DNA of 64,000 nucleotides from Allomuricauda sp. CP2A (GCF_001683915.1 NZ_LXTT01000026.1:124001-188000), one strand, 5' to 3'. Positions 7,705-56,157 are shown, counted from the stretch's first letter. Translations and numbers: made by a program. Notes: generated by a model from the sequence alone, not told the origin.

Positions 7705-7722
7705 AGAAATATGTTTTTACTT

Positions 7723-9147: not shown

Positions 9148-9164
9148 GTGAAGTTGTTAGTCAG

Positions 9165-9959: not shown

Positions 9960-10065
9960 TGTGTGGCGAAAGATTTTTTCTGAAGGGTTAAAGTACAAAA
10001 TATTGGACAACCTTTTTTCTTCCATTTTCACTACATTTAAGGCCGACTAATTCAACACTTTTAAA

Positions 10066-25379: not shown

Positions 25380-25459
25380 AATTGATTTTAGTTCTAAGGC
25401 TGGCGAATATAATGGTTTAATAACCTAAATGCCAGTCATTAATCCAAAAATGATATGTA

Positions 25460-26884
25460 TTAAGTCAGTTCCCAACCCTTACGATATTCACGAGTGACCC
25501 AATCGTTTGCTTTATCGTAATTGGTAATTTTCATATTGTCACCATCCCAGAACAGTTTTCTTCTGCCGGGATATTCAAAAGGATCCCAATCCCCCACTTT
25601 TTTGCCTTCCTTCAATACTTTGTATTGATATGCTTTAACGGCCAGGTTACCCATGAGCACGGTTTCGGTCAATCGTCCGGCTTTGGCAAAATTGGATGAG
25701 GTTGGCGTTCCATTTAAACAGCCATCCACAAAATTGCCAATGTGTCCGCCCATACCTCCGGGAATTCTTGGGTATTTGGGTGCTGGAGCATTGTATAGAT
25801 CCATCATGTCTGAAGGAAGCAAACGGGCATTTTGTGAATAGGTGTCGCAAACCAGAGTGCCTTTTTCACCATACATTATGGTTCCGCCTCCACCATCGCC
25901 AATGGTTTCTCCATCCTTCAGTTCGTCTGGAAGGTCGGGTTTAATCCCACCATCGTACCAATTAAGGGCGATGTCTCCATGCGCTTCATGTTCAAACTTT
26001 AAATGTATTTTGGAGGAAGGTGGACAGGAAGGACTATAATCCGCTTCCACAAAATCACCTACCCAAACGGTTGTACAGCTGGCCTCAGCTTCTGTGGGAT
26101 AGCCCAAATCCAGAACACTGAAAGGGGTTTCCATGATATGGCATCCCATATCGCCCAAAGCGCCAGTGCCAAAATCCCACCATCCCCGCCATTTGAACGG
26201 CAAGTAGGCGGCATTATAATCCCGCATTGCTGCCGGACCCAACCAAGTGTCCCAATCCAATTCCTTGGGCACTCTTTGTTTTTTGGAAGGAACAGGGACG
26301 CCCTGTGGCCAAACAGGTCTGTTGGTCCAACAATCTATGGTATGCACTTTTCCTATGATTCCAGATTCTACCCATTCCCGTGCAATACGGCTACCATCAC
26401 TGGAGGCACCTTGGTTTCCCATTTGGGTAACAATGCCGTTTTCCTCCGCTACTTGGGTCATTAAGCGAGCTTCGTAAATGTTATGGGTCAACGGTTTTTC
26501 AACATAGGCATGTTTTTTCTCCCGCATAAAGGGCAATGCTATGGAAGCGTGCATATGATCGGGGGTGGCCACCATTATGGCATCAATATCATTTAAGTGG
26601 GTATCGAAGACCTTTCTAAAGTCCTTGTATCGTTTTACATCAGGAAATAAGTCAAAAGTGGCTTGGGCACGGCGATCATCTACATCGCAAAATGACACGA
26701 ATTTAACCTTTCCCGTTTCGTTGAGTCCGCGAATTACGCTTTCTCCTCTTCCTCCTACGCCAAAGGCCCCAACATATAAAGTGTCACTAGGAGGAACATG
26801 GGTTTTTCCCAAAACATGGCTTGGAACAATAGAAAAAGCAGCTGAAGCCGCTGCCGCATTTTTAATGAATTTTCTTCTTTGCAT
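25460..26884 (-). CDS. Gfo/Idh/MocA family oxidoreductase with Tat signal
   Basis: 474 residues from the ATG at 26884, which places a true twin-arginine motif at the N-terminus (RRKFIKNAAAA, ending VLGKTH). The upstream extension to 26935 is rejected. The Rossmann motif reads VGAFGVGGRGES, and the EKP signature is intact (YVEKPLTH). The C-terminal half has WWDFGTGALGDMGCHIME and GDGGGGTIMYGEKG. It belongs to the same large Bacteroidota subgroup as the gene at 7723, but has no DUF1080 neighbour. Probably a periplasmic sugar or glycoside oxidoreductase with bound NAD(P). Confidence 0.87.
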   Translation of the reverse strand: MQRRKFIKNAAAASAAFSIVPSHVLGKTHVPPSDTLYVGAFGVGGRGESVIRGLNETGKVKFVSFCDVDDRRAQATFDLFPDVKRYKDFRKVFDTHLNDIDAIMVATPDHMHASIALPFMREKKHAYVEKPLTHNIYEARLMTQVAEENGIVTQMGNQGASSDGSRIAREWVESGIIGKVHTIDCWTNRPVWPQGVPVPSKKQRVPKELDWDTWLGPAAMRDYNAAYLPFKWRGWWDFGTGALGDMGCHIMETPFSVLDLGYPTEAEASCTTVWVGDFVEADYSPSCPPSSKIHLKFEHEAHGDIALNWYDGGIKPDLPDELKDGETIGDGGGGTIMYGEKGTLVCDTYSQNARLLPSDMMDLYNAPAPKYPRIPGGMGGHIGNFVDGCLNGTPTSSNFAKAGRLTETVLMGNLAVKAYQYKVLKEGKKVGDWDPFEYPGRRKLFWDGDNMKITNYDKANDWVTREYRKGWELT

Positions 26885-26931
26885 GTTGTTTAGTTTGAAT
26901 AGCCCTTCAAGATACAAAAAACCGTTAGAGG

Positions 26932-27594
26932 TCAAAACCTATTCCCGTTCCATTCTTTATAAAATTGATCCAAATAAACCAACATAAACTGGTGCCGTTC
27001 TTGAGCCAGTTTTTGGCCCGTTGCCGTATTCATTTTTTCCTTTAGCAAAAGAAGTTTTTCATAAAAATGATTGATGGTCGGCGCTTGGGAATTCTTGTAT
27101 TCCTCCTTGGTCATATTTAGATTGGGGGGAACGTTTGGGTTGTACAGGGGTCTATTTTTGAATCCACCATAATTAAAGGCCCGGGCAATGCCAATGGCAC
27201 CCATAGCATCCAATCGGTCTGCATCTTGTACCACTTGAAGCTCTTTTGATGAAAATGTTGCCGAGCTTTTATCCAAACTATTTTTAAAGGACATGTGTTG
27301 GATGATGTTGACCACATGGTCAATAGTGGTGTTATCCACTTGCTGTGATTTTAGAAAATCACGGGCCATGTTGGGACCCACGTTTTCATCGCCATCATAA
27401 AACTTTGGGTCAGCAATATCGTGTAACAAAGCGGCCAGTTCCACCACGAGTGAATTTACTTCCTCATGTTGGGAAATCAGTTTTGTTGTGTTGAAAACCC
27501 GTTCAATGTGAAACCAATCGTGCCCCCCTTCAGCATGTTGAAGCGTCTCTTTTACAAAATCGATGGTATTTTGTATCAGATGGTCTTTTTTCAT
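26932..27594 (-). CDS. HD domain phosphohydrolase
   Basis: 220 residues. The metal-binding H...HD...D set is visible: GGHDWFHIERV near residue 26, LAALLHDIADPKF near residue 53, and DADRLDAMGAIGIARAF near residue 127. The plan fits YedJ/PF01966-type nucleotide or phosphate-ester phosphohydrolases of about 215-230 residues. Its start overlaps by 4 bp the end of the acyltransferase gene, so the two are translationally coupled. Substrate unknown. Confidence 0.88.
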   Translation of the reverse strand: MKKDHLIQNTIDFVKETLQHAEGGHDWFHIERVFNTTKLISQHEEVNSLVVELAALLHDIADPKFYDGDENVGPNMARDFLKSQQVDNTTIDHVVNIIQHMSFKNSLDKSSATFSSKELQVVQDADRLDAMGAIGIARAFNYGGFKNRPLYNPNVPPNLNMTKEEYKNSQAPTINHFYEKLLLLKEKMNTATGQKLAQERHQFMLVYLDQFYKEWNGNRF

Positions 27595-41403: not shown

Positions 41404-42057
41404 TTACAGTGACCACGCTTTACCGTTGGTCAAAGTAGTTAGGTCGCCACAAGCAATATATTCACCTGGAACAGGGGCATAGGCCAATACTTCCTCACCG
41501 ATGAACTCTGAAGACTTGTATGCCCAAATGGACAGGTCACGAAGGTCATTGGCAAAAGAAAAACGGGCTATGTCGTCATCAATATCGGCTTGGCCACCGC
41601 TGATGATAGCGTCCATATAGCTGTCAATTGCTTCCATATGGATTTCTTCTTGCTCTGGGGTGCGTTTTGCCAAATAGGCCTTTAAAACCGGCTCTATATC
41701 GCTTGCTTCCACATCTGCCAGGGACTGTTTACCGGAATCGGACAAAACTTTGTCATAAAACCTGTCCATCTTCAGTTTTACAAAATTCAATTGATCTTCT
41801 GGCAAAACCTCGTCCAAATAGGCATCAATAAACACATGAACGTTCATTTCCGTGGCCGAAGGCGTATCGGTCTTTGGCAAAATAATGTCCACGGTCTGTG
41901 CAAGGGCATATCCTTGGTCTTTGCTCAAAAAGGAAGGTACCCATTCCGCATACGGAGCCTTATCCTTACAGCTCTGGAGAATTCCCAATAGCGTTGGTGT
42001 GGCCACGGCATAACCAAAGGCCAATCCCATATTTTTTAGTGCAGATCTTCTTTCCAT
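41404..42057 (-). CDS. Gluconate 2-dehydrogenase subunit 3-like protein (Tat-exported partner of the GMC enzyme)
   Basis: 217 residues. The N-terminus MERRSALKNMGLAFGYAVA is a twin-arginine signal, ending near ILQSC, which could also be lipidated. The rest is the helical subunit 3 domain (PF13618): DIILPKTDTPSATE, VFIDAYLDEVLPEDQ. In membrane-bound sugar dehydrogenases this small subunit carries the Tat signal and takes the FAD subunit across with it. Its start overlaps the GMC stop by one base, so the two are coupled. Confidence 0.88.
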   Translation of the reverse strand: MERRSALKNMGLAFGYAVATPTLLGILQSCKDKAPYAEWVPSFLSKDQGYALAQTVDIILPKTDTPSATEMNVHVFIDAYLDEVLPEDQLNFVKLKMDRFYDKVLSDSGKQSLADVEASDIEPVLKAYLAKRTPEQEEIHMEAIDSYMDAIISGGQADIDDDIARFSFANDLRDLSIWAYKSSEFIGEEVLAYAPVPGEYIACGDLTTLTNGKAWSL

Positions 42058-43775
42058 TATATATTTCCTTTTTTAAGTTCTTGAGCAGCATGGTGAGCAG
42101 CCCTTGCCGTAAAGGCCATATAGGTCAACGAAGGATTCACGCAACTTGCAGATGTCATGAACGCTCCATCGGTTACATAAACATTCTTGCAGGCATGAAC
42201 CTGGTTGTTTCCATTCAAGACAGAAGTCTTGGGGTTGCGACCCATTCGGGCGGTTCCCATTTCGTGGATTCCAAGGCCCAAAGCGCCAGGTTCATCGTAA
42301 GGCTCAACATCCCTAATACCTGCCTTGGTGAGCATTTCAACGGCCTGCTCCTTCATGTCCTCACGCATTTTCCATTCGTTTTCATGAAGCTCGGCATCAA
42401 AAGTAATGGTTGGCAATCCCCATTGGTCCAATTTATCGTAATCCAGGGTCATTCGGTTGTCCTCATAAGGAAGTACCTCGCCAAAACCGCCCATACCAAA
42501 GGACCATCCCCCTGGTTTAAGGATAGCCTCCTTAAAGTCTTTTCCATACGAAAGCTCGGCCACGGTTTCTTCCCAGTTGTCCCTTCCGGCACCACCTTGA
42601 TAACCATACCCACGAATAAATTTATCTGAATTGGAGCTGCCGCCCAAGTTTCTAAATCGTGGAACGTATACTCCGTTGGGCTTTCTTCCTTTGTAATATT
42701 TATCTTCAAATCCATCAAATTTACCAGCGGCACCCACATTTAAATGGTGGTCCATGATATTTCTTCCCAATTGGTCGGAATCATTGCCCAAGCCATTGGG
42801 GAAACGATCAGATCTGGACTGCATTAAAATGGAGGTAGAGGCAATTGCAGAGGCACAAAGGAATATTACTTTAGCTTTGAATTCGAATTCTTCTTTGGTC
42901 TCGCGGTCTATTACTTTTACCCCTGTTGCTTTTTGGGTATCTGGATCATAAATTACTTCATGAACAATGGAATCTGGTCGCAATGTCATGTTGCCTGTTC
43001 TTTCCGCAGCGGGCAACGTTGAGGAAACACTACTGAAATAGGCTCCAAACGGACATCCTCGGATACAGCGGTTCCTAAACTGGCAACGTACACGTCCGTC
43101 ACCATCAAACTGCTTATCACTGTTGATGTGGGCCACCCTTCCTGCAGTGATCACCCGTCCATCAAAATGTTCAGCAACTTTTTCCCGGACATGGCTTTCC
43201 ACGCAGTTGAGCTCCATCATGGGTTCAAAGATTCCATCGGGAAGCTGTGGCAAGCCCAAGGCCTCACCGGAAACCCCGATATAACTTTCAACCTTGTCGT
43301 ACCAAGGGGCAATATCTTTATAACGCACGGGCCAATCCACGGCAATGCCATCATTTTTGTTGGCTTCAAAATCAAGGTCGCTCCAGCGGTAGCTGTGACG
43401 GCCCCACATAATGGAACGGCCACCTACGTGGTACCCCCGCATCCAATCAAATCGTTTCGTTTCATTATAAGGATGGTCAATATCATCCACAAACCAAAAA
43501 TTGTGCGGAGCTTTTACGGTATAGCCGGTCCTGGCCTGTTTTTCTTGCCTGGCAGCCTTTTCTCTCGGCAATTCACCATTATGGGGGAAATCCCAAGGGT
43601 CTAAATTAGCTGTAGGATAGTCTTCACGGTGTTTCACCATGGGACCACGTTCCAAGACGAGGGTCTTAAGGCCATTTTCACATAGCTCCTTTGCAGCCCA
43701 ACCACCACTAATGCCAGTTCCTACTACAATGGCATCATATGATTCCTGCTCCTCGTTGTAATAAAATTTACTCAT
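42057..43775 (-). CDS. GMC family FAD oxidoreductase, candidate glucoside 3-dehydrogenase large subunit
   Basis: 572 residues, no signal of its own. FAD-binding starts YDAIVVGTGISGG with LERG at 41-44. The catalytic pair is likely H504 (IHEMGTARMG) and N547 (CVNPSLT). A C231-x5-C237-x3-C241-PFGA segment resembles the 3Fe-4S site of bacterial FAD-linked sugar dehydrogenases. With subunit 3 it forms the pair known in gluconate, fructose and glucoside 3-dehydrogenases. Surrounding DUF1080 genes favour oxidation of sugars at C3. No cytochrome subunit is adjacent, so its electron acceptor is not seen. Confidence 0.85.
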   Translation of the reverse strand: MSKFYYNEEQESYDAIVVGTGISGGWAAKELCENGLKTLVLERGPMVKHREDYPTANLDPWDFPHNGELPREKAARQEKQARTGYTVKAPHNFWFVDDIDHPYNETKRFDWMRGYHVGGRSIMWGRHSYRWSDLDFEANKNDGIAVDWPVRYKDIAPWYDKVESYIGVSGEALGLPQLPDGIFEPMMELNCVESHVREKVAEHFDGRVITAGRVAHINSDKQFDGDGRVRCQFRNRCIRGCPFGAYFSSVSSTLPAAERTGNMTLRPDSIVHEVIYDPDTQKATGVKVIDRETKEEFEFKAKVIFLCASAIASTSILMQSRSDRFPNGLGNDSDQLGRNIMDHHLNVGAAGKFDGFEDKYYKGRKPNGVYVPRFRNLGGSSNSDKFIRGYGYQGGAGRDNWEETVAELSYGKDFKEAILKPGGWSFGMGGFGEVLPYEDNRMTLDYDKLDQWGLPTITFDAELHENEWKMREDMKEQAVEMLTKAGIRDVEPYDEPGALGLGIHEMGTARMGRNPKTSVLNGNNQVHACKNVYVTDGAFMTSASCVNPSLTYMAFTARAAHHAAQELKKGNI

Positions 43776-43911
43776 TTATTCGGATTGTTTAGTTGCTAAA
43801 TGTATTAATTATTAAATTAATTTTCTACATTTAATCCCTATGTTTATTGAGAATTCCCTACTATAACGTTGTAGTTTTTGGATTCTATAAGAAAATCGAT
43901 AGTTTGTGTTT

Positions 43912-44907
43912 ATGAAGAAAAAGAATGTTTTTCAAAGCGGTGTTTTGACCGTTATGGTGATTTTGGTATCAGGATTATATTCCTGCAAACAGAACCAGAA
44001 AAAGGAAACCTCTGATATCCAAACATCCGAGGAGGTAATGGCTGAAACAACCGAACCTTCCTATAAAATTTCCTTGGCCCAGTGGTCCATCAACAGAATG
44101 ATCAGGGAGGATGGGGTAGACCCCTACAAATTTGCCGAAATGGCAAATGAATGGGGCTTTGATGGCCTTGAATACGTAAGCCAGTTATATTATCCCGAAT
44201 TGGAAAAGGATAATTTTTCCGAAGCCGCCATGAACGCTTTTGTGGAAAAAAGCAAGGACGAGAGTGAAAAATACGGTCTGGAGAATTTACTGATCATGGT
44301 GGATGGACAGGGAGATTTGGCGGCCACCGATGAAAAAGAAAGAAAAGAGGCCGTGGAGAACCATTACAAGTGGGTAGATGCGGCGGCGGCATTGGGCTGT
44401 CATTCCATCCGTGTAAACCTAAATGGCACCCAAGACCCTGAAGCTTGGAAACCGGCTTCCATTGATGGGCTAACACAATTGGCCACCTATGCCAAGGACA
44501 AGAACATCAATGTTATTGTTGAAAACCATGGCGGGCCTTCCTCAAATGCAGGATTGTTGGTAGAGGTGATACAACAAGTGGGCATGGACAATTGTGGCAC
44601 ACTCCCGGATTTTGGTAATTTTTGCATAAAAAGAGAGGCAGGGGATTATTATGAATCCAAATGTCTTGAGGAATATGATCGATACAAAGGAGTCACTGAA
44701 TTGATGCCCTACGCCAAAGGTGTCAGTGCCAAATCCTATGGTTTTGATGAAGAGGGCAAGGAGACCACCATAGACTTTGCCAGAATGATCAAGATTGTCA
44801 AAGATTCGGGTTATACCGGATTTATTGATGTTGAATATGAAGGCAATGAACTGGGCGAGGAAGAAGGTATCCTGGCCACTAAAAAGTTATTGGAACAATT
44901 ACTCTGA
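43912..44907 (+). CDS. Exported sugar phosphate isomerase/epimerase-like TIM-barrel lipoprotein
   Basis: 331 residues from the ATG at 43912 (a GTG lies two codons upstream). A lipoprotein signal ends LYS-C25, then an acidic linker. The AP-endonuclease-2-like TIM barrel shows SLAQWSINRM, WGFDGLEYVSQ, VNLNGTQDPEAW, NVIVENHGG and FIDVEYEGNE, with Glu, Asp, His and Glu at metal positions. Its place outside the cytoplasm argues against a phosphorylated substrate. First gene of the plus-strand operon with DinB, two MFS genes and Gfo/Idh/MocA; it diverges from the GMC gene. Confidence 0.85.
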   Translation: MKKKNVFQSGVLTVMVILVSGLYSCKQNQKKETSDIQTSEEVMAETTEPSYKISLAQWSINRMIREDGVDPYKFAEMANEWGFDGLEYVSQLYYPELEKDNFSEAAMNAFVEKSKDESEKYGLENLLIMVDGQGDLAATDEKERKEAVENHYKWVDAAAALGCHSIRVNLNGTQDPEAWKPASIDGLTQLATYAKDKNINVIVENHGGPSSNAGLLVEVIQQVGMDNCGTLPDFGNFCIKREAGDYYESKCLEEYDRYKGVTELMPYAKGVSAKSYGFDEEGKETTIDFARMIKIVKDSGYTGFIDVEYEGNELGEEEGILATKKLLEQLL

Positions 44908-44931
44908 CGCACCTCAATAAGCAACGGCCGT

Positions 44932-45375
44932 ATGAAGGGATTTTTACAACAACTCTTCGACTATAATTTTTATTGCAACAAAAAATTGATTGCACAATGT
45001 AGTTCCCAAGATAAAATCTCGGAGAACACCATACGCCTGTTCAGTCATATCTTGAACGCCCACCATATTTGGAACCAACGGATTTTGGAATCCCCAATTA
45101 AATATAAGGTATGGCAGGAACAGCCCTTTGAAGATTGGGAAGATATCCACTATGAGAACCAAAGGACTTCGTTTGAGATCATCACCAATGCAGATGATCT
45201 TTACAAAAGGGTGGAATATGAAAACAGCGAAGGGAGAACCTTTGGCAATGAACTAAAGGATGTCCTTTTTCACATAGTGAACCATTCTACCCACCACAGA
45301 GGTCAAATTTCAATGGATTTTAGGGGTTCCGGTATCATTCCAGAACCTTTGGACTATATATTTTATAAAAGGTAA
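44932..45375 (+). CDS. DinB family metal-dependent protein
   Basis: 147 residues, four-helix-bundle DinB. Likely metal ligands: His in LFSHILNAHHIW near residue 40 and the pair in HIVNHSTHHRGQ near residue 125. No signal peptide. It sits between the TIM-barrel lipoprotein (24 bp upstream) and the nucleoside-symporter-like gene (7 bp downstream). As the second DinB gene in a DUF1080/Gfo context here, it likely serves sugar metabolism, perhaps as an isomerase or a thiol-dependent enzyme. Confidence 0.87.
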   Translation: MKGFLQQLFDYNFYCNKKLIAQCSSQDKISENTIRLFSHILNAHHIWNQRILESPIKYKVWQEQPFEDWEDIHYENQRTSFEIITNADDLYKRVEYENSEGRTFGNELKDVLFHIVNHSTHHRGQISMDFRGSGIIPEPLDYIFYKR

Positions 45376-45382
45376 CCCCTAT

Positions 45383-46612
45383 ATGAGCACAAAAATAAAG
45401 TTCCAACTTTCGTTTATGATGTTCTTGGAGTTCTTCATTTGGGGAGGGTGGTTTGTGACATTGGGTACCTTTTTGGGCAACAACTTGGGCGCCACCGGTG
45501 GTGAAATAGCCCAAGCATTTTCAACCCAATCCTGGGGAGCGATCATAGCACCTTTTATAATTGGGCTGATTGCGGACAGATACTTTAATGCCGAACGAAT
45601 TTTGGGGATGCTCCATCTTATTGGGGCCTTGCTAATGTATCAAATGTATCAAACTACAGATTTTGGCTTGTTTTATCCTTATGTTTTAGGATACATGATC
45701 CTTTACATGCCTACACTTGCTCTCGTGAACTCCATATCTTTTAATCAGATGACGGATCCCGCCAAGGAGTTTTCTCCCATACGTGTTTTTGGGACCATTG
45801 GTTGGATCGTGGCAGGGCTTGTCATCAGTTATCTGTTTTTATGGGATTCTCCCGAAGGCATTCAATCTGGTATGTTGAAGAATACGTTCCTAATGGTGGC
45901 ATTGGCATCGGCCGTTTTGGGATTGTTCAGCTTTACCCTGCCCAAGACGCCCCCCAGAGCAGATAGAAATGAGAAAGTGAGTATTTCGGAAGTGCTGGGT
46001 CTTGATGCCCTGAAGCTGTTAAAGGATAGAAATTTCTTGATTTTCTTTATCTCATCGGTATTAATATGTATCCCTCTGGCATTTTATTACCAAAATGCAA
46101 ACCCATTTTTATCCGAGATCGGGATGAATAACCCCACTGGGAAGATGACCATCGGGCAAGCCTCCGAGGTACTTTTTATGCTGTTGCTTCCCTACTTCTT
46201 CAAAAAATTTGGCTTTAAAATGACCATCATGGCCGGTATGTTGGCCTGGACCTTACGATATTTGTTGTTTGCCTATGGCGATGCGGGTGAAATAGCCTTT
46301 ATGTTATTGATAGGGATAGCACTCCACGGTATCTGCTATGACTTTTTCTTTGTATCGGGCCAAATATATACCGATTCGAAGGCGGGGCACAAATACAAAA
46401 GTGCGGCGCAGGGGCTCATCACTTTGGCCACTTATGGCGTTGGCATGCTGATAGGTTTTTGGGTGGCCGGACAAATTACGGATGCCAACCTAATTGGTGA
46501 AAACGAACACAATTGGACCAATATTTGGGGCTTCCCTGCTATTTTTGCTCTCGGTGTAGCCCTTATCTTTATGGTTTTCTTTAAAAATGAAAAAGTATCA
46601 TATAAACAATAA
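45383..46612 (+). CDS. MFS transporter, nucleoside:H+ symporter family
   Basis: 409 residues, 12 membrane helices. The opening LSFMMFLEFFIWGGWFVTLG and SWGAIIAPFIIGLIADRYF are typical of the NupG/NHS group (PF03825). In Bacteroidota such genes often sit in sugar operons next to Gfo/Idh/MocA and TIM-barrel genes, so the substrate may be a modified sugar and not a nucleoside. A second, different MFS gene follows after 22 bp. Confidence 0.85.
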   Translation: MSTKIKFQLSFMMFLEFFIWGGWFVTLGTFLGNNLGATGGEIAQAFSTQSWGAIIAPFIIGLIADRYFNAERILGMLHLIGALLMYQMYQTTDFGLFYPYVLGYMILYMPTLALVNSISFNQMTDPAKEFSPIRVFGTIGWIVAGLVISYLFLWDSPEGIQSGMLKNTFLMVALASAVLGLFSFTLPKTPPRADRNEKVSISEVLGLDALKLLKDRNFLIFFISSVLICIPLAFYYQNANPFLSEIGMNNPTGKMTIGQASEVLFMLLLPYFFKKFGFKMTIMAGMLAWTLRYLLFAYGDAGEIAFMLLIGIALHGICYDFFFVSGQIYTDSKAGHKYKSAAQGLITLATYGVGMLIGFWVAGQITDANLIGENEHNWTNIWGFPAIFALGVALIFMVFFKNEKVSYKQ

Positions 46613-46634
46613 TTAACTGAATAAATTCAACCTA

Positions 46635-47807
46635 ATGGAACAAGTAAACAAGAATAGACTTTTTATTGCATCCTGTGTAGCCTTATTGGTAACAGCAATG
46701 ACTTTTGCTATAAGGGCACGACTGGAGACCGTTTTTGGACCCGAAGGGGTAGGACTTACCCTGGAACAAATAGGCTATGCTTTTACTCCTGCCTTTTGGG
46801 GATTTACCTTAGCTATGCTTTTGGGTGGACCTTTGGTGGATTTTTTGGGAATCAAAAAAATCACATGGATTGCATTCATTACCCATGCTATTGGTATTGT
46901 CTGGACTATTTTGGCCAATGACATGACCTCACTTTTCATTGCCACTTTGTTCGTGGGCATTGGCAATGGTTTTGTTGAGGCGGCACTCAACCCTATGATT
47001 GCATCAATGTATCCTAAAAGCAAGACCAAAATGTTGAACCGTTTTCACGTGTGGTTTCCTGGCGGTATTGCGATAGGAGGCGTTGTAGGATGGCTGGTCA
47101 TGGATGTAATGGGTCTTAGCTGGCAAATAATGGTAGGTACGCTGTTTATCCCATTGATTATTTATGCGATAATGTTTTACGGACAAAAATTTCCGGTTAC
47201 CGAACGTGTGGCCCTTGGGGTTACCAATAACAAAATGCTATCAAGTATTGGTAAGCCCCTCTTCATTTTTATGGTACTTTGTATGATGCTTACGGCCGCA
47301 TCAGAATTGGGTACCACACAACGTATAGAATCCTTGTTAAAGGAATCAGGTACCATACCACTATTGGTGCTTGTCTTTATCAACGGAATCATGGCCTTGG
47401 GTAGGGCTTTCGCAGGTCAGGTCATTCATAAATTGCAACCATCCGGTATGCTTCTCTTTTCAGCAATATTTACATTTATAGGCCTTTGGTTGTTGACCAT
47501 AACAAGTGGCCCTGCAACATTTTTGGCCGCAGGGGTATTTGCAATAGGGGTCACTTTTTTCTGGCCGACCATGCTCGGTTTTGTTGCAGAATACCTGCCA
47601 GAAACCGGTGCTTTGGGATTGTCCATAATGGGAGCAGCCGGAATGCTTTCTGTCTCGATAGTACTACCCATCATGGGGAACCTTATGGATAACGCCAGTG
47701 CACATGAAGCTCTTCGTACTATGTCAACCTTACCAGCCATATTGATTGTGGCCTTTATTGGATTGTATATATTTATGCGAGGAAAAAAAGTTCAGACAGA
47801 AGAGTAA
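46635..47807 (+). CDS. MFS transporter, sugar-type
   Basis: 390 residues, 12 membrane helices. After ARLETVFGPEG comes AFWGFTLAMLLGGPLVDFLG, the MFS motif A region, then FVGIGNGFVEAALNPMIASMY with the helix-4/5 signature of FucP-like sugar symporters. It differs clearly from the preceding symporter, so the operon codes two unlike importers. Likely import of the processed sugar from the periplasm. Confidence 0.83.
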   Translation: MEQVNKNRLFIASCVALLVTAMTFAIRARLETVFGPEGVGLTLEQIGYAFTPAFWGFTLAMLLGGPLVDFLGIKKITWIAFITHAIGIVWTILANDMTSLFIATLFVGIGNGFVEAALNPMIASMYPKSKTKMLNRFHVWFPGGIAIGGVVGWLVMDVMGLSWQIMVGTLFIPLIIYAIMFYGQKFPVTERVALGVTNNKMLSSIGKPLFIFMVLCMMLTAASELGTTQRIESLLKESGTIPLLVLVFINGIMALGRAFAGQVIHKLQPSGMLLFSAIFTFIGLWLLTITSGPATFLAAGVFAIGVTFFWPTMLGFVAEYLPETGALGLSIMGAAGMLSVSIVLPIMGNLMDNASAHEALRTMSTLPAILIVAFIGLYIFMRGKKVQTEE

Positions 47808-47837
47808 GTTTCAATAATAGAGTAAAAATTAAGATTT

Positions 47838-48974
47838 ATGCCAAAAAAAATCAGACTTGGAATTCTTGGAGGAGGCGGAGATTCGCTCATTGGAGTGTTG
47901 CACAGAGTAGCCTCGTTCATCAATGACAACTATGAAATCGTAGGGGCGGTCTTCAACCCAAATTTTGAGGACAACATGAATTTTGCAAAGGAGATTGATA
48001 TTCCCACAAACCGTATCTACAAGGATTTTGATACGCTGGTGGAGGAAGAATTAAAACTTCCGGAGGAGGAACGGATTCAGGTGTGCTCCGTGTTAACACC
48101 AAACTTCCTGCATTTTCCCATGGCCAAAAAGCTGTTGGAAAACGGGTTCCATGTCATTTGTGAAAAACCAATGACCACAACCTATGAAGAAGCCAAGATT
48201 TTACAGGAAACCTTGGCCAAGGCGGGAACTGTTTTTGCGGTCACCCATACCTATACCGGGTATCCCATGGTGCGCCAGATGCGGGAAATGATCAAGGCCG
48301 GGGAATTGGGCAAAATCCATAAAGTGGATGCCCGATATTACCAAGGTTGGATCAATCCCATTATCCATGACAAGGAAAAACGCTCGTCTGTATGGCGATT
48401 GGATCCCAAAAAGGCGGGTATCAGTTCCTGTATGGGAGATATAGGGGTGCACGCCTTTAATATGATCGAGTTTACCACGGGGCTTCAGGTAAAATCCCTG
48501 TTGTGTGATTTCAATTATATGTATGATGACAACCAGATGGATGTGGATGGAACAGTTCTCATACGTATGGGTAAGAACGTAAAAGGAGTAATCAGGGCAA
48601 GTCAGGTTGCCACAGGTGAGGAAAACGGACTGGCCATTGCCATTTACGGCGAAAAAGCTGCGTTTAGATGGGAGCAGGAAAAACCCAATTTCCTCTATAG
48701 ACTGAGCGATACAGAACCGGTACAGATTTATAAACCGGGACACGCCTATAATTCTGAACTTTCCTTGGACGGCACCAAACTGCCTCCCGGACATCCCGAA
48801 GGTATCTTTGATGCCATGGCCAATATTTATCTAGGCGTGGCTAGGGCAATCAGGGGAGAAAAATACAACGATGGTGAATTCCCAACCATGTTGGATGGTG
48901 TTCGAGGACTAAATTTTATTGAAGGCACCGTAGCTTCGCACAAGCAAGGCAACGTTTGGATGGATTTGGATTAA
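47838..48974 (+). CDS. Gfo/Idh/MocA family oxidoreductase, cytoplasmic
   Basis: 378 residues without a signal peptide. The Rossmann motif is LGILGGGGDSLIG, the catalytic EKP is intact (VICEKPMTT), and the C-terminal domain has ARYYQGWINP and GISSCMGDIGVHAFNM with the likely catalytic Asp and His. This subgroup reduces keto-sugars or oxidises myo-inositol-like sugars with NAD(P). Last gene of the five-gene operon, 30 bp behind the second MFS gene; a terminator follows. Best candidate for turning imported 3-keto sugar back into an ordinary hexose. Confidence 0.9.
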   Translation: MPKKIRLGILGGGGDSLIGVLHRVASFINDNYEIVGAVFNPNFEDNMNFAKEIDIPTNRIYKDFDTLVEEELKLPEEERIQVCSVLTPNFLHFPMAKKLLENGFHVICEKPMTTTYEEAKILQETLAKAGTVFAVTHTYTGYPMVRQMREMIKAGELGKIHKVDARYYQGWINPIIHDKEKRSSVWRLDPKKAGISSCMGDIGVHAFNMIEFTTGLQVKSLLCDFNYMYDDNQMDVDGTVLIRMGKNVKGVIRASQVATGEENGLAIAIYGEKAAFRWEQEKPNFLYRLSDTEPVQIYKPGHAYNSELSLDGTKLPPGHPEGIFDAMANIYLGVARAIRGEKYNDGEFPTMLDGVRGLNFIEGTVASHKQGNVWMDLD

Positions 48975-49000
48975 TCCAGACTCTCACTCTATAAAAGTAA

Positions 49001-49028
49001 AATGGCCGCAATTTGCGGCCATTTTTTT
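49001..49028. terminator. Terminator between the sugar operon and the ASCH gene
   Basis: AATGGCCGCAA and TTGCGGCCATT form a long GC-rich stem, then TTTTTTT. The T-run touches the stop codon of the convergent ASCH gene at 49027; it can work both ways. Confidence 0.88.
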
Positions 49029-49491
49029 ATCGTTTAAAAAGCAGTTCAAATCCTTGGAAGACCACAATCATGCTCTCGCGTGGAATCTTTCCAAATTCGG
49101 CAAGTTCCCGGGAAAAATAGGACCAATGGGTCTTTTTCCAATGTTCCAGACTTTTGTCCCCCTCACCTTCCAACCGTGCCTGTTCTTCACGTACCGCAAA
49201 AAAAGGCGTCAATTTTACCGAAGTGGTCCGTATGATGCACTTGGCATTACCCTCCCAATCAGTAACAACCGAAAACTCCCCAATTTTGGGCAGTGGCATA
49301 TTTCGCTGTTGCAACCCCATTAAGGAATGCGAAACCGCTCTTTTGGTTTCTTTGCAAATTAAATCCACACACGTATTGGTATCTTGTTCATTATCATAAA
49401 AACGAACGACCTTGGGAGCATCTTTTGAAGCAAACTCCAAATGGGCGTCCAAAAAATCGCCCCATAGATTCCGGGCAGATGCATTTTCCAT
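49027..49491 (-). CDS. ASCH domain protein
   Basis: 154 residues. The PUA-like ASCH core is seen in KIGEFSVVTDWEGNAKCIIRTTSV and a SYFSRELAEFG helix after an Arg/Glu-rich loop (EEQARLEGEGDKSLEHW). ASCH proteins bind RNA, and some hydrolyse N4-acetylcytidine. Single gene between two plus-strand sugar operons, with no visible link to them. Confidence 0.85.
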   Translation of the reverse strand: MENASARNLWGDFLDAHLEFASKDAPKVVRFYDNEQDTNTCVDLICKETKRAVSHSLMGLQQRNMPLPKIGEFSVVTDWEGNAKCIIRTTSVKLTPFFAVREEQARLEGEGDKSLEHWKKTHWSYFSRELAEFGKIPRESMIVVFQGFELLFKR

Positions 49492-49606
49492 AAGCAGGTA
49501 TTTTAAAAACTTTATATTGCTTTAATTGTTGGCGAATTCCTATATTTATGTTTTCTACATGGGGAATAAAAATATCATAGAATTTTTCTAAATATAGAGG
49601 ATAAAT

Positions 49607-49620
49607 CGCAAAATTTTGCG
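49607..49620. promoter_or_regulatory. Perfect 14-bp palindrome upstream of the TIM-barrel/DUF1080 operon
   Basis: CGCAAAATTTTGCG lies 28 bp before the ATG at 49649, a fitting place for a repressor operator. It resembles LacI-family operators in outline but lacks the central CG. Found only here in the window. Confidence 0.45.
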
Positions 49621-49648
49621 GATTTGTTGATTCATAAAACCAAGTTAA

Positions 49649-50701
49649 ATGAAAACTATCAAAGGACCGGCTGTATTCTTAGCACAATTTGTGGACAGTC
49701 AACCACCGTTCAATTCTTTGGATGGATTATGCAAATGGGCTTCAAGCCTAGGATATAAAGGAATTCAAATACCAACATGGGAATCGTTCCTTATCGATTT
49801 GGACAAAGCTGCCGAAAGTCAGGATTACTGTGACGAGCTCAAGGGAAAAATAAACTCCTACGGCCTTGAAATCACAGAATTGTCCACCCACTTACAGGGA
49901 CAATTGGTGGCAGTACACCCAGCCTATGACATTATGTTCGATAATTTCGCCCCCGAAGCATTGCACGGAAAACCAAAGGAACGCACTAAATGGGCCATTG
50001 AAACCGTAAAAAAAGCAGCAACCGCAAGTAGAAGATTGGGAATTACGACCCATGCAACCTTCTCAGGAGCTTTACTTTGGCATACCATGCACCCTTGGCC
50101 TCAAAGACCACCGGGATTGGTGGAGATGGGTTTTGAGGAATTGGCCAAAAGATGGATGCCCATCCTAAACCATTTTGATGAAGAGGGTGTGGATGTGTGC
50201 TACGAGATTCACCCGGGCGAGGATTTGCATGATGGGGACACTTTTGAGCGCTTTTTGAAAGCCACAGGGAACCACAAACGGGTAAACATCCTGTACGACC
50301 CAAGCCACTTTGTGCTGCAACAATTGGATTACATTGAGTACATCGATTTTTACCATGAGTTTATCAAGTCCTTCCACGTGAAGGATTCAGAGTTCAATCC
50401 CACAGGAAAAAAAGGCGCCTTTGGCGGCTACAACGATTGGGGAGATAGAGCAGGACGTTACCGTTCTTTAGGTGATGGCCAAATCGACTTTAAGACCATT
50501 TTTTCCAAATTGACCCAATACGGATGCGATGTTTGGGCGGTAATGGAATGGGAATGTTGCATCAAGAGTCCAGAGCAGGGAGCCCGTGAAGGTGCCAAGT
50601 TCATTCAGGACCATATTATTGAGGCCACGCAAAAGACCTTTGATGATTTTGCAGGGGCAGAAATTGACTCACAAAAACTTAAAAATATCCTTGGGCTATG
50701 A
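49649..50701 (+). CDS. Sugar phosphate isomerase/epimerase-like TIM-barrel protein, cytoplasmic
   Basis: 350 residues, no signal peptide. Barrel strands and metal ligands are visible: LGYKGIQIPTW, ITELSTHLQGQ, VCYEIHPGEDLHDG (Glu), ILYDPSHF (Asp and His), SFHVKDSEF (His), and a late Glu in AVMEWECC. The large insert GGYNDWGDRAGRYRSLG is typical of the subgroup found with Gfo/Idh/MocA enzymes. It starts an operon with two DUF1080 genes (4-bp overlap with the first), so it likely isomerises a sugar released by them. Confidence 0.88.
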   Translation: MKTIKGPAVFLAQFVDSQPPFNSLDGLCKWASSLGYKGIQIPTWESFLIDLDKAAESQDYCDELKGKINSYGLEITELSTHLQGQLVAVHPAYDIMFDNFAPEALHGKPKERTKWAIETVKKAATASRRLGITTHATFSGALLWHTMHPWPQRPPGLVEMGFEELAKRWMPILNHFDEEGVDVCYEIHPGEDLHDGDTFERFLKATGNHKRVNILYDPSHFVLQQLDYIEYIDFYHEFIKSFHVKDSEFNPTGKKGAFGGYNDWGDRAGRYRSLGDGQIDFKTIFSKLTQYGCDVWAVMEWECCIKSPEQGAREGAKFIQDHIIEATQKTFDDFAGAEIDSQKLKNILGL

Positions 50702-51447
50702 GAAAACCGATCCTGTTGGCCGTGCTGGTCATGGCCTTTGCCTGTAAGGAAAAACCCAAGGAAAATGCTTCACAGGAAGCTGGGAAAGAAGAAATGGAAG
50801 TTGTGGAAGAAGCTGAATGGACCGTTTTGTTTGATGGCTCATCCTTTGATGGCTGGCATATTTACAATGGTGGAGAAGTAGGTGCGCCTTGGAAGTTGGA
50901 AGATGGTGCCATGATCTTTGATCCTTCTTTGGATGAATCTGAAGGTAAACACTTTAATCTTGTCACTGATGCGGAATACACCAACTTTAAACTATCCTTG
51001 GAGTGGATGGTGACCGAAGGGGCCAACAGTGGTGTCATGTGGGGCGTTGTGGAAGATGAAAAGTATGGCGAACCGTATATGACCGGTCCAGAAATCCAAG
51101 TGTTGGACAATGTTGGCCACCCCGATGGAAAGAACGGAACATCACACCAAGCTGGAGCATTGTACGATATGGTTTCTCCTGCCGAAGATGTTACAAAACC
51201 CCTGGGAGAGTGGAATCATTTTGTAATCACCATAAACCATGAGACCAATGAAGGCAGTGTGGTTTTGAATGATACTACAGTGGCTGAGTTCCCGGTAAAT
51301 GGGGAAGCATGGAACCAGATGGTCTCCAAATCCAAGTTTGCCGACTGGGAAGGTTTTGGTGAATTCAAAACAGGAAAGATCGCATTGCAACACCATGGCG
51401 AACCCATAGTGATAGGGTACAGGAATATTAAGATTAAAGAATTATAA
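50698..51447 (+). CDS. DUF1080 (3-keto-disaccharide hydrolase-like) lipoprotein
   Basis: 249 residues. Lipoprotein signal with lipobox MAFA-C16, then a Glu/Lys linker. The family signature LFDGSSFDGW near residue 43 and EGANSGVMWGV in the jelly-roll core are intact. It overlaps the TIM-barrel stop by 4 bp and lies 1 bp from the second DUF1080 gene. Likely cleaves 3-keto-glycosides in the periplasm. Confidence 0.87.
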   Translation: MRKPILLAVLVMAFACKEKPKENASQEAGKEEMEVVEEAEWTVLFDGSSFDGWHIYNGGEVGAPWKLEDGAMIFDPSLDESEGKHFNLVTDAEYTNFKLSLEWMVTEGANSGVMWGVVEDEKYGEPYMTGPEIQVLDNVGHPDGKNGTSHQAGALYDMVSPAEDVTKPLGEWNHFVITINHETNEGSVVLNDTTVAEFPVNGEAWNQMVSKSKFADWEGFGEFKTGKIALQHHGEPIVIGYRNIKIKEL

Positions 51448-51448
51448 G

Positions 51449-52207
51449 ATGCAAAAACTAAGAAGTATTTTGTTGGTTTTGTTGGCGGTAATTTCCACAA
51501 ATGGTTTTGCCCAATTGGAAAAGGAACCGACCAAACCGGAAGCCACTGAATTTTATGAACCCGTTGTGCCTGTTGTAACACCGGGAAAAGACGGCGCGCC
51601 ACCCAGCGATGCCATTGTTCTTTTTGATGGTAGCAGCTTGGATAAATGGATCAGTACTGCCGACAGTACTGCCGCCAAATGGACAGTGAACAAGGATGGC
51701 AGCATGACGGTAAAGGACAGAACGGGAGATATTCAAACCAAGCAAAACTTTGGAAGCATACAGCTCCATGTTGAATGGAGATCACCAGCTGAAATACAGG
51801 GTGAAAATCAAAGTAGGGGTAATAGTGGTGTTTTTCTTTCTGGATTGTACGAGGTACAAGTTTTGGACAACAACAATAACGACACTTATGTGAACGGTCA
51901 GGTTGGCTCTATTTACAAACAGCACACTCCATTGGCCATGGCTTCGGTCCCATCAGGGGAGTGGAACACCTATGACATCATCTACCATGCTCCCGAGTTT
52001 GAAAAAGGCCAAAAGGTCAAGTCGGGAACGCTCACGGTGATCCATAATGGTGTTTTGATCCAGGATCATGTGGAAATCAAGGGAACAACACCCTATATTG
52101 GTTGGCCCAAAAACCCACCACATGGAGATGGACCACTTCGACTCCAGGACCATGGCGATAACAGCAGGGTAAGCTACAGAAACATTTGGGTACGGGAGCT
52201 GGACTAA
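51449..52207 (+). CDS. DUF1080 (3-keto-disaccharide hydrolase-like) secreted protein
   Basis: 252 residues with a Sec signal peptide ending NGFAQ and no lipobox. The signature reads LFDGSSLDKW, and RGNSGVFLSGLYEVQVLD marks the core; EWRSPAEIQGENQS lies before it. This subtype differs from the lipoprotein just upstream (different loops, NNNNDTYVNGQVGS), so the two are probably not redundant. Soluble periplasmic or released enzyme. Confidence 0.87.
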   Translation: MQKLRSILLVLLAVISTNGFAQLEKEPTKPEATEFYEPVVPVVTPGKDGAPPSDAIVLFDGSSLDKWISTADSTAAKWTVNKDGSMTVKDRTGDIQTKQNFGSIQLHVEWRSPAEIQGENQSRGNSGVFLSGLYEVQVLDNNNNDTYVNGQVGSIYKQHTPLAMASVPSGEWNTYDIIYHAPEFEKGQKVKSGTLTVIHNGVLIQDHVEIKGTTPYIGWPKNPPHGDGPLRLQDHGDNSRVSYRNIWVRELD

Positions 52208-54340: not shown

Positions 54341-55444
54341 TTACTGTTTTGCCTTGACAACCCCAACCATACTATCAGCGGTACCGTAGTACAGGTGCCA
54401 CATTCCATCAAAAAGAACCAGACCTTCCAAAAACGTTGTGCCATCCTTGTATTGCCCCGATTTTTCAAAAGGGAGTTCGGGTTTAATAAAAGGGTCATTG
54501 GTGCGATCAAGCAGTTTCCATGGTTCGTTGGAATCAAACAGGGCCTGCCCGCCCGTGTAGATTCGATTGCCCAGTTCTTTTACCCCGATGTTTTGGGAAT
54601 TCCCCGCATTGTACAGGACCACAATGCCATTTTCCGTAAGCAAGGGAGGAGGGCCGGCCTCTACCAACCAAGAATCAAAATAACCCGGTCTTGGGCTCAA
54701 TACAGGGGCTAAATTGCCTTCATAAGTTTCAATGGGTTCCCAATCGGTGAGATTGGTTGAGCTGGCCAACCAAATGTGTGGAACTCCGTAATACATCCAA
54801 TATTTTCCATTGATTTTGGCAGCAACCAGCTTGCCATTCTTCAACTCTGTGACAATAGCTCCGGATTTTGTTTCTCGATCAAGATACACGCCTTCCTTAT
54901 GATTTTTCAATGCCGGACCATGTTTTTCCCAATGGATGAGGTCCTTTGATGTGGCCACAGCCAACCGTGGAATCTTTTGGTTCCATTGCGTATAGGTGAG
55001 CACATATAGGCCATCTTCTGTTTCTACAATGCGGGGATCTTCGGTTCCTCCGGGCCACTCATTTTGTTTTTGCCCATCAAGATTTGGATGGAAAACGGGT
55101 TTTGGGTTTTTGGAAAAGAGGATGCCATCCGTAGAGGTGGCCAAACCGATTCTGGACCGGTGCCCGCCAATTTCTTTTTCTCCCAGCTTTTCTTCGGCCC
55201 TGTACAGCACATGAATCTTTCCATCCTTAACAATGGCCGCTGGATTAAAAGTGGCCATGGATTCCCAATGTGCGTCTTTGCCCGTAATAGGGTCTTTGAA
55301 TATGGATGTCGTATCTTTTTGAAGAATGGGTTGGGCATTCTGGGGCCGTTCAAATGGGCCCATCATCCAAGGTTTTTCCGATTTTTGTGAAAACGTGGAG
55401 ACCAAGGGAATCAATAGAATCAGTAGAAATGTGAAGTGCCTCAT
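54341..55444 (-). CDS. Secreted GH130-like glycosidase/phosphorylase
   Basis: 367 residues from the ATG at 55444, with a signal peptide ending TFSQ. The five-bladed propeller shows NPAAIVKDGKIHVLYRA, SRIGLATSTDG, GGTEDPRIVETEDG and GPPPLLTENGIVVLYNAG. The EDPRI block carries the likely catalytic Asp of GH130. Family members act on beta-mannosides or other beta-linked oligosaccharides, by phosphorolysis or by hydrolysis. Export suggests hydrolysis of external glycans. It lies 8 bp behind DUF6503. Confidence 0.8.
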   Translation of the reverse strand: MRHFTFLLILLIPLVSTFSQKSEKPWMMGPFERPQNAQPILQKDTTSIFKDPITGKDAHWESMATFNPAAIVKDGKIHVLYRAEEKLGEKEIGGHRSRIGLATSTDGILFSKNPKPVFHPNLDGQKQNEWPGGTEDPRIVETEDGLYVLTYTQWNQKIPRLAVATSKDLIHWEKHGPALKNHKEGVYLDRETKSGAIVTELKNGKLVAAKINGKYWMYYGVPHIWLASSTNLTDWEPIETYEGNLAPVLSPRPGYFDSWLVEAGPPPLLTENGIVVLYNAGNSQNIGVKELGNRIYTGGQALFDSNEPWKLLDRTNDPFIKPELPFEKSGQYKDGTTFLEGLVLFDGMWHLYYGTADSMVGVVKAKQ

Positions 55445-55452
55445 TGTAGCGT

Positions 55453-56157
55453 CTATTTTTCCAAAATGTCCGTGCCCAAATAGTTGTCGTCCTTGTTTAG
55501 ATACCATGCCCTTGTTTTGGGCATTTGTATGCCATTGATGCTCTCCAAACCTTCCAAAAGGATATATTCCCCATCATTTTTACTTTCATCATGGTAGAAT
55601 TGGTACACTTCCATGGCATAGGTCTTTGGGTCAAAATAGAAATACCAGACATCACTGCCCACGCTTTTTTCATAAGTGACCTTCAACACTAAATATTCCT
55701 TGCCCTTAAAGGTTTTCTTTTGCACTTTCTCATCCAAAAGGGTGCCAGGGTCCTTTAGTTTCATGGGGAGTCCATAGAGATAGGTATAGTAGTTTTTCAT
55801 GGTTTCCCCACGATCACAAGTGAGCCTATAGGTCTTTCTATCCTCATCACTGATTTCAGCAGAGCCGTTTAGGGTGGTGGTACAGTTTCCTTTGTCAAAG
55901 GCATAGGTATAGGAAACCCCATCTTTTTCTACCAAAAGGTGGAACTGCCGTTCTGGAATATCCAGGGTTATAGTGCTCAATCGGTCACTTGAATTGGGAC
56001 TTTTCATGAGGACCTTAAAGTCACCGTCAAAAGTCTTCCAATTACCGTTTGGGTCATGAAACGCAATGGTTTTGTCCAAAAGCTGTTCGGCCGAGATGTC
56101 TTGGGCCTGCGAAATGGTGCCAAGGCATAGTGCCACGAATAAAATAAAGTAGCGCAT
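55453..56157 (-). CDS. DUF6503 secreted protein (LolA-like fold)
   Basis: 234 residues from the ATG at 56157, with a signal peptide ending ISQAQ. The LolA/LppX-like beta-sheet pattern is seen (WKTFDGDFKVLM, YTYAFDKGNCTTTLNG, VWYFYFDPKTYAMEVYQFYH). This suggests binding of a hydrophobic ligand, but the function is unknown. It lies 19 bp behind the PiT gene and 8 bp before the glycosidase, likely in one transcript. Confidence 0.8.
   Translation of the reverse strand: MRYFILFVALCLGTISQAQDISAEQLLDKTIAFHDPNGNWKTFDGDFKVLMKSPNSSDRLSTITLDIPERQFHLLVEKDGVSYTYAFDKGNCTTTLNGSAEISDEDRKTYRLTCDRGETMKNYYTYLYGLPMKLKDPGTLLDEKVQKKTFKGKEYLVLKVTYEKSVGSDVWYFYFDPKTYAMEVYQFYHDESKNDGEYILLEGLESINGIQMPKTRAWYLNKDDNYLGTDILEK

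Follow-up and report, generated by a model that had tools for sequence, protein, structure and literature searches.

Can a flavobacterium take small glycosides apart without hydrolysis, by way of 3-keto sugars, and on which side of the inner membrane would each step take place? The question is raised by a locus at positions 41404-52207 of a 64,000-nucleotide stretch of DNA from Allomuricauda sp. CP2A (hereafter the window, within which all positions are counted), where a sequence-only reading had proposed a large 3-keto-sugar locus. We found ten pathway genes and one ASCH-domain gene there, arranged in three tight units. Judged by homology and gene context, the locus very probably codes for a pathway that uses glycosides without hydrolysis and is divided between periplasm and cytoplasm; its steps are most readily interpreted as oxidation, elimination, import, hydration and reduction, in that order. 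Counted by family, it holds what a non-hydrolytic 3-keto-glycoside locus is expected to hold: a predicted C3 dehydrogenase (a GMC protein with its subunit 3), the lyase family (two PF06439 genes), a hydratase and a hydratase-linked Gfo/Idh/MocA (Gfo) gene.

The gene that best fixes the chemistry is the second of two TIM barrel genes, because hydration of a glycal is useful only if a 3-keto-glycoside has been cleaved by elimination. Residues 1-350 of its product match residues 1-349 of PDB 8ro4, titled '2-hydroxy-3-keto-glucal hydratase' and taken by us to be the Agrobacterium enzyme, at E=8e-163, and this cytoplasmic protein very probably performs the hydration step. The presence of an orthologue of an enzyme named for 2-hydroxy-3-keto-glucal also argues for oxidation at C3. 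Six counterparts of the protein, with 64-68% identity to it, are encoded on proteobacterial plasmids, each beside a Gfo gene. On the Pseudoalteromonas plasmid the run comprises Gfo, hydratase, a major facilitator superfamily (MFS) transporter, DUF1080, GMC, subunit 3 and a TIM barrel with a signal-like start; in Croceicoccus it comprises Gfo, hydratase, subunit 3 and GMC, the GMC and hydratase being 46% and 67% identical to those of the window. In rhizobia and Azospirillum (four of the six), no GMC or DUF1080 gene is annotated adjoining the hydratase. The Gfo protein of the locus shares 35-41% identity with the products of Gfo genes that neighbour the hydratase on five proteobacterial plasmids (41% for Pseudoalteromonas).

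Layout of the locus

The features of the locus are as follows; PF06439 is currently named 3keto-disac_hyd in Pfam and is the DUF1080 of the sequence-only reading.

41404-42057 (-): subunit 3 (Gluconate_2-dh3), small subunit; PF13618, E=9.8e-22
42057-43775 (-): GMC flavin adenine dinucleotide (FAD) dehydrogenase, proposed large subunit of a glycoside 3-dehydrogenase; PF05199/PF00732
43906-44907 (+): exported xylose-isomerase-like TIM barrel (TIMx), AP_endonuc_2, lipoprotein-like; PF01261
44932-45375 (+): DinB-superfamily protein without export signal; PF05163, E=1.5e-13
45383-46612 (+): putative importer, Nuc_H_symport/LacY-like MFS; PF03825, E=2.9e-118
46635-47807 (+): second putative importer, MFS_1; PF07690
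47838-48974 (+): Gfo/Idh/MocA oxidoreductase without export signal, proposed 3-keto-hexose reductase; PF01408/PF22725
48999-49025 (no strand): bidirectional terminator-like hairpin 3' of unit two, 12-pair stem
49027-49491 (-): ASCH-domain gene between units two and three; PF04266, E=2.7e-15
49649-50701 (+): second AP_endonuc_2 protein without export signal, 2-hydroxy-3-keto-glucal hydratase orthologue; PDB 8ro4
50698-51447 (+): first DUF1080/3keto-disac_hyd lipoprotein, proposed periplasmic 3-keto-glycoside lyase/hydrolase; PF06439, E=3e-46
51449-52207 (+): second DUF1080/3keto-disac_hyd protein, exported; PF06439, E=2e-40

Our open reading frame (ORF) calls and Pfam searches agree with the families and coordinates previously given for all ten pathway genes. 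The ASCH-domain gene was absent from that description; despite its position it probably stands outside the pathway. The spacing also agrees with the three transcription units proposed earlier: the GMC and subunit 3 genes share 1 base, the gaps in the series TIMx-DinB-MFS-MFS-Gfo are 7-30 bases, and hydratase, DUF1080 and DUF1080 follow one another at -4 and +1 bases. Subunit 3 begins with MERRSALKNMGLAFGYAVATPTLLGILQSC, which is twin-arginine-like and lipobox-like. Promoter searches gave no enrichment: the Bacteroidetes-type pattern TTTG-N18..21-TANNTTTG has one match in the window against a shuffle mean of 2.4, and sigma-70-type sites number 14, below the shuffled mean of 23. By eye, the flanks look housekeeping-like: upstream lie two ORFs resembling ribonucleotide reductase genes, and downstream lies a YicC-like gene.

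Conservation among relatives

To place the locus among its relatives, a genome collection was scanned with a profile of 13 GMC sequences, and the best 80 of at least 592 confirmed relatives were kept; the sample consequently leans to close relatives, mostly Flavobacteriaceae, whose loci are related by descent and not independent. Genes were counted as present at 0.3 bits per query residue or more, and the counts are lower bounds because greedy ORF calling lost genes (the TIM barrel in L126 and L140, for example) and contig ends cut loci. Subunit 3 was found in 69 of the 80 loci, Gfo in 50, TIMx in 48, DUF1080 in 48, the hydratase in 47, the nucleoside-type MFS in 42, ASCH in 24, DinB in 23 and the second MFS in 11. 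The families travel together: the 48 loci with TIMx have Gfo in 47, subunit 3 in 46, the hydratase in 42, the nucleoside-type MFS in 41, DUF1080 in 40, DinB in 23 and the second MFS (MFS_1) in 11, compared with subunit 3 in 23, DUF1080 in 8, the hydratase in 5, Gfo in 3 and DinB in none of the 32 loci without TIMx, which are partly cut contigs and otherwise other GMC loci. In the commonest order, GMC-subunit 3 and TIMx-(DinB)-MFS-Gfo are transcribed away from each other, and hydratase-DUF1080 comes after the latter; in four Aquimarina loci all genes point the same way. The linkage on which the sequence-only reading had staked its proposal is therefore present among the best 80 loci. The core of the locus is conserved in flavobacteria, and its families form one locus.

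Many relatives (L021, L022, L025-L028, L032, L040, L056, L060, L064 and others) carry a second GMC gene between hydratase and ASCH. We considered whether the window had lost such a gene and rejected the idea: a tblastn search with the L021 copy detected nothing left of one between hydratase and ASCH, and the three other GMC genes of the genome are at most 59.5% identical to that copy, less than the GMC of the locus itself (67%). GMC genes 61-68% identical to that of the window also occur in metagenome bins from outside the phylum, titled Gammaproteobacteria (L074, L091) and Opitutaceae, Verrucomicrobia (L096, L097), reflecting either gene transfer or misbinned contigs. Another TIM-barrel-like family, with a start that looks twin-arginine-like by eye, is present in 21 of the 80 loci (L092, 4076-4942 (+), for example).

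Compartments and the proposed route

The division of the enzymes between periplasm and cytoplasm, as first proposed, is kept in the relatives. Using a simple N-terminal hydrophobic-core test of our own rather than a trained signal-peptide predictor, we found a core in 43/48 TIMx proteins, 33/33 first and 30/31 second DUF1080 proteins and 39/51 subunit 3 proteins, compared with 0/46 hydratases, 0/23 DinB proteins, 2/50 Gfo proteins and 0/104 GMC proteins.

In the route that we propose, GMC would leave the cytoplasm together with its subunit 3 partner, and the exported pair would, going by context and homology, oxidise small glycosides at carbon 3 of their terminal glycosyl unit. The exported DUF1080 enzymes, and possibly TIMx, would next break the glycosidic bond thus weakened; this beta-elimination, by analogy with characterised DUF1080 enzymes, should release the aglycone and a 2-hydroxy-3-keto-glycal. 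One or both MFS proteins may import this product; the cytoplasmic TIM barrel, an orthologue of a hydratase of solved structure and the strongest assignment of the series, would hydrate the glycal to a 3-keto-hexose, and the Gfo protein would reduce the latter to an ordinary hexose. The sequence-only reading had described an oxidise-cleave-import-reduce scheme. Its 3-keto route is still the best reading, whereas the hydration step was missing from it. Since none of 46 hydratase relatives shows an export signal and the cleaving enzymes do, import is probably, at least partly, of the un-hydrated enone glycal rather than of the 3-keto sugar that it had assumed. If DUF1080 eliminates, the product that meets the cytoplasmic hydratase would have to cross the inner membrane as this enone glycal. 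The further claim that the route needs neither a SusCD pair nor a classical glycoside hydrolase applies to the locus only.

Dehydrogenase and cleaving enzymes

GMC residues 9-570 align with the large subunit of fructose dehydrogenase (E about 1e-39), and fructose and glucose dehydrogenases are the PDB entries that the protein matches best. Its Cys231, Cys237 and Cys241 are aligned to Cys of the fructose dehydrogenase large subunit that we take to be ligands of a 3Fe-4S cluster, and H504 and N547 are invariant in 13 sequences. The CxxCH motif is absent from subunit 3, GMC, TIMx, both DUF1080 proteins, Gfo, hydratase and DinB. In 11 of the 80 relatives (L041, L043-L046, L051-L053, L057, L065 and L083) a small, mostly lipoprotein-like CxxCH protein adjoins GMC/subunit 3 and is likely to be the electron acceptor there; this count leaves out L047, where such a gene lies at a distance of 2.7 kb, and the larger CxxCH ORFs of L081 and L091.

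DUF1080 is a known family of 3-keto-glycoside cleaving enzymes. The two proteins of the locus belong to different subfamilies and are 27% identical: the first has PDB 4jqt as its best match (E=1.5e-35), with 8rr2, 8tda and 9fbe at 1.2e-28 to 9e-28, and the second 4qhz (E=6e-78), with 8rr2 at just 3e-4. Within Flavobacteriaceae samples the number of DUF1080 matches ranges from 0 to 30 per genome, and two matches often lie in one open frame of about 440-530 amino acids. The MFS_1 protein of the window is 44% identical, over a 408-column alignment, to the MFS protein of the Pseudoalteromonas locus (L099).

An exported TIM barrel of its own subfamily

TIMx is the enzyme of the locus whose role is least obvious. 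Its nearest structure is PDB 4ovx from Planctomyces limnophilus, whose title assigns no function (profile E=3e-112). A model from AlphaFold2 (mean predicted local distance difference test score 88.6) superimposes on it with a VIA Z score of 40.6 and a root-mean-square deviation of 1.3 over 265. The profile next finds the alpha subunits of C-glycoside lyases (9m3b, 7xrf, 7bvr/7exz and 8qvc; 2e-12 and weaker) and then the isomerase Art22 (4e-9). Structural comparison ranks these differently, with Z scores of 28.8 for Art22, about 25 for ketose (tagatose/allulose) 3-epimerases and 24-27 for the lyase subunits. In our alignment of 21 sequences, E206-x-H208 on beta-5, D235 on beta-6 and E310 on beta-8 are invariant, as is Ser274, at the position where the lyases and the hydratase carry the beta-7 metal His (the alignment is significant to 7xrf and 9m3b and weak to the hydratase). 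The N-terminus is lipoprotein-like in the window and twin-arginine-like in L021 and L022.

We found TIMx in 65 of 296 Bacteroidota genomes (E up to 1e-40) and inspected 35 regions from 33 of these genomes, hand-picked for diversity. In 14 of the 35, the maps as we read them show at least one relative of GMC, subunit 3, DUF1080, hydratase or Gfo, scoring 0.3 bits or more per residue; one region, L133, has the run TIMx-Gfo-DUF1080-GMC-(subunit 3-like by eye)-Gfo. DUF1080 matches above the Pfam cut-off occur in all 33 genomes, compared with 33 of 60 in a Flavobacteriaceae sample that serves as an unmatched control. At least 9 of the 40 TIMx copies in the 33 genomes are no more than 3 kb from a DUF1080 match (0.5 expected), and at least 12 no more than 9 kb (1.5 expected); several of these genomes are congeners, and one copy (in G109) belongs to the same locus type. 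This proximity indicates that TIMx is a recurrent DUF1080 partner beyond the studied locus and across the phylum. By these sequence features, TIMx appears to be a subfamily of its own and a candidate periplasmic 3-keto-glycoside lyase.

Two established lyase types were compared with it. TIMx was not assigned to the DgpC/CGE family, as it lacks the beta-7 His and no beta subunit was found: a phmmer search (E up to 0.01) of 1373 ORFs from the 80 loci with a single Croceicoccus sequence of DUF6379, run without a positive control, gave no match. Against AtOGE-type lyases, hhalign returned a probability of 0.4%; because the same test returned an equal 0.4% for the hydratase profile, which represents the same Pfam family, we give this comparison no weight.

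DinB as a lineage-limited accessory

Of the 48 TIMx loci, 23 carry DinB, always as the next gene downstream of TIMx. These loci come from Flagellimonas/Allomuricauda, Croceivirga, Croceitalea, Aurantibacter, Pricia, Maribacter, Zobellia, Cellulophaga, Eudoraea and further relatives; those of Aquimarina and Christiangramia lack the gene, as does one of two from Cellulophaga. Where present it is conserved, with thirteen orthologues showing 49-72% identity to the copy in the locus. The Pfam match and three His place the protein in the DinB/YfiT metalloprotein superfamily: His44 is present in 24/24, His118 in 23/24 and His122 in 22/24 rows, and these are presumably the metal ligands, some of which two copies (L031 and L058) have lost.

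The sequence-only reading had counted DinB among the members of the pathway. We measured its proximity to DUF1080 in eight hand-chosen Flavobacteriaceae genomes (six with at least 12 DUF1080 matches; G143 with 8 and G139 with 7), using 117 of 123 matches and excluding six below the Pfam cut-off. Within 3 kb of a DUF1080 match lie 4 of 103 DinB starts against 1.8 expected, about twofold, one of them in a second cluster of the window described below; the corresponding numbers are 2 against 0.9 at 1.5 kb, 6 against 2.9 at 5 kb and 11 against 4.6 at 8 kb. Four of these eleven, including the window's own, look by spacing like the same locus type. With 4/103 against 1.8, we discarded the idea that DinB partners 3-keto chemistry in general. 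It is a lineage-limited accessory of one set of genera, elsewhere not clearly associated with DUF1080, and its gene should not be read as that of a pathway enzyme without further evidence.

Weighing alternative readings

Several points weigh against the proposed pathway. Since the nearest solved relatives of GMC are fructose and glucose dehydrogenases, the C3 position rests on context; no cytochrome candidate is present among the eight locus proteins scanned (all except the two MFS proteins and ASCH); the Gfo gene scores far beneath all NCBIfam cut-offs (36 bits for BT_2158_fam, against 750); and the 80 loci, being the best 80 of at least 592, are related by descent. None of ten Pedobacter DUF1080 genes has a lactose phenotype (PMC9007349), and deletion of BT2157 or BT2158 in B. 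thetaiotaomicron causes no defect on raffinose-family sugars (PMC11501099); redundancy is a possible reason for these missing phenotypes. That GMC/subunit 3 might be an ordinary gluconate, fructose or aldose dehydrogenase, its neighbours a loose collection of sugar genes, would suit its PDB matches and the Pfam name of subunit 3, taken from gluconate 2-dehydrogenase, but we regard this as very improbable in view of the tight linkage to hydratase and DUF1080, conserved in Bacteroidota and Proteobacteria. A closer competitor keeps the pathway and moves one step: the DUF1080 enzymes would both cleave and hydrate in the periplasm, the 3-keto-hexose would be imported, and the cytoplasmic hydratase would just handle glycal that enters or is made from imported 3-keto-glycosides. 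The B. thetaiotaomicron lyase of the H275N study, which we take to be DUF1080-type, apparently hydrates, so that a 3-keto sugar could form in the periplasm. Its H275N variant is hydration-deficient, implying that the wild type hydrates (PMC13273386), and PMC9007349 likewise speaks of hydrolysis. Pulling the other way, the hydratase is kept in 42 of the 48 TIMx loci and is better conserved across phyla (64-68% identity) than Gfo (35-41%), GMC (32-46%) or the two DUF1080 proteins (28-36%), a retention and identity that suggest a main-line role. We hold periplasmic hydration to be a serious possibility, if well short of an even one.

For TIMx, two functions compete. It may be a second lyase, acting for example on beta-linked 3-keto-glycosides beside a DUF1080 enzyme for alpha-linked ones, a division of labour modelled on that of the A. 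tumefaciens and B. thetaiotaomicron lyases. The sequence profile, nearest to C-glycoside lyase alpha subunits after 4ovx, the invariant E206-x-H208, D235 and E310 and the phylum-wide linkage to DUF1080 favour this, as does the preference of the Agrobacterium TIM-barrel lyase for beta-configured substrates (PMC10628242); the invariant Ser274 in place of the beta-7 metal His, the failure to find DUF6379 in the 80 loci and the equally high structure scores to epimerases count against it, leaving it plausible but less likely than not. Slightly less probable, to our mind, is that TIMx acts on the released product before its import, as an epimerase or isomerase of keto-sugars that would alter its shape: the Z scores of TIMx to Art22 and the tagatose/allulose 3-epimerases are above or tied with those to the lyases, but TIMx lacks one ligand of what we take to be their four-ligand metal site, and the sequence profile prefers the lyase subunits even though it reaches Art22. 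A joint reading, in which TIMx would be a new Bacteroidota family of 3-keto-glycoside enzymes with a three-ligand site (Glu-x-His, Asp and Glu, with the beta-7 Ser), no beta subunit and DUF1080 as its partner, and in which, in addition, the MFS proteins in the inner membrane would import the reactive enone 2-hydroxy-3-keto-glycal for hydration inside the cell only, strikes us as rather unlikely in full.

Other clusters in the window

A second small 3-keto-type cluster at 7201-10031 (-) encodes DinB_2, a twin-arginine-like Gfo/Idh/MocA protein and a DUF1080 lipoprotein-like protein; the BT_2158-like Gfo within it (7723-9147) scores 291 bits against the cut-off of 750. At 23904-26935 (-), a vanadium-chloroperoxidase-like protein (DUF6851/VCPO_2nd/PAP2) lies beside another BT_2158-like Gfo, with a twin-arginine-like start and 476 bits against 750. 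A GH130-family protein with a signal-like start at 54341-55507 (-), 2.1 kb downstream of the locus, resembles the BT3780 beta-1,2-mannosidase closely, although its 460 bits fall short of the cut-off of 550.

Relation to known systems

The route is not new: a matching gene set is already in print for Caulobacter, where it is tied to lactose use (PMC9007349), and a four-enzyme operon for Agrobacterium (PMC10628242). The Caulobacter study also reports LacA with DUF1080 neighbours from Indibacter, Algoriphagus and Halomonas, and in Pedobacter a phenotype for the dehydrogenase (PMC9007349). The Caulobacter set resembles ours in combining a dehydrogenase, two exported DUF1080 proteins, two epimerase-type proteins, a reductase and a transporter. 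It differs in that the window locus has no cytochrome found and has DinB and two MFS genes in addition. We take LacA, LacB and LacC to be GMC, cytochrome c and subunit 3. The locus has the GMC/subunit 3 pair by family, and we did not class it as LacABC because no CxxCH motif was found among its eight scanned proteins; its dehydrogenase probably works like LacABC.

The Agrobacterium tumefaciens operon (GlycDH-OGE-HYD-Gfo) is described as comprising a dehydrogenase, a TIM-barrel lyase, a TIM-barrel hydratase with preliminary evidence and a Gfo reductase (PMC10628242). The likeness lies in the FAD dehydrogenase, two xylose-isomerase-like TIM barrels and the Gfo reductase; unlike that operon, the window locus has DUF1080 and exported cleaving enzymes. 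The lyases also differ on beta-5, where AtOGE has His-x-His (His132 and His134; PMC10628242), and five relatives HNH, in place of the Glu-x-His of TIMx. From its length and matches we infer that 8bvk is the Agrobacterium lyase. The alpha subunits of DgpB/DgpC (CGE) are the nearest characterised sequence relatives of TIMx, sharing Glu-x-His, Asp and Glu; TIMx has Ser for the beta-7 His, is exported and has no DUF6379 gene found beside it in the 80 loci. The BT2156-BT2160 cluster of B. thetaiotaomicron reportedly combines a DUF1080 3-keto-glycoside cleaving enzyme with Gfo/Idh/MocA genes, families also present in the window. By contrast, the dehydrogenase there is a Gfo/Idh/MocA protein (NCBIfam BT_2158_fam, glycoside 3-dehydrogenase), a family for which the Gfo of the locus falls far short of the cut-off, and the latter Gfo has no hydrophobic N-terminal core.

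Together, these comparisons show that the locus is real, conserved and of a kind already recognised, distinguished by the uncharacterised exported TIMx family and the lineage-limited DinB. Breakdown of glycosides via 3-keto sugars without hydrolysis has been tied to genes just recently, and our analysis suggests that a full candidate route of this sort is present in many flavobacteria, its division between periplasm and cytoplasm conserved, which would place hydration inside the cell. It singles out the TIMx family, represented by the solved but uncharacterised 4ovx, as the main enzyme without an assigned role.

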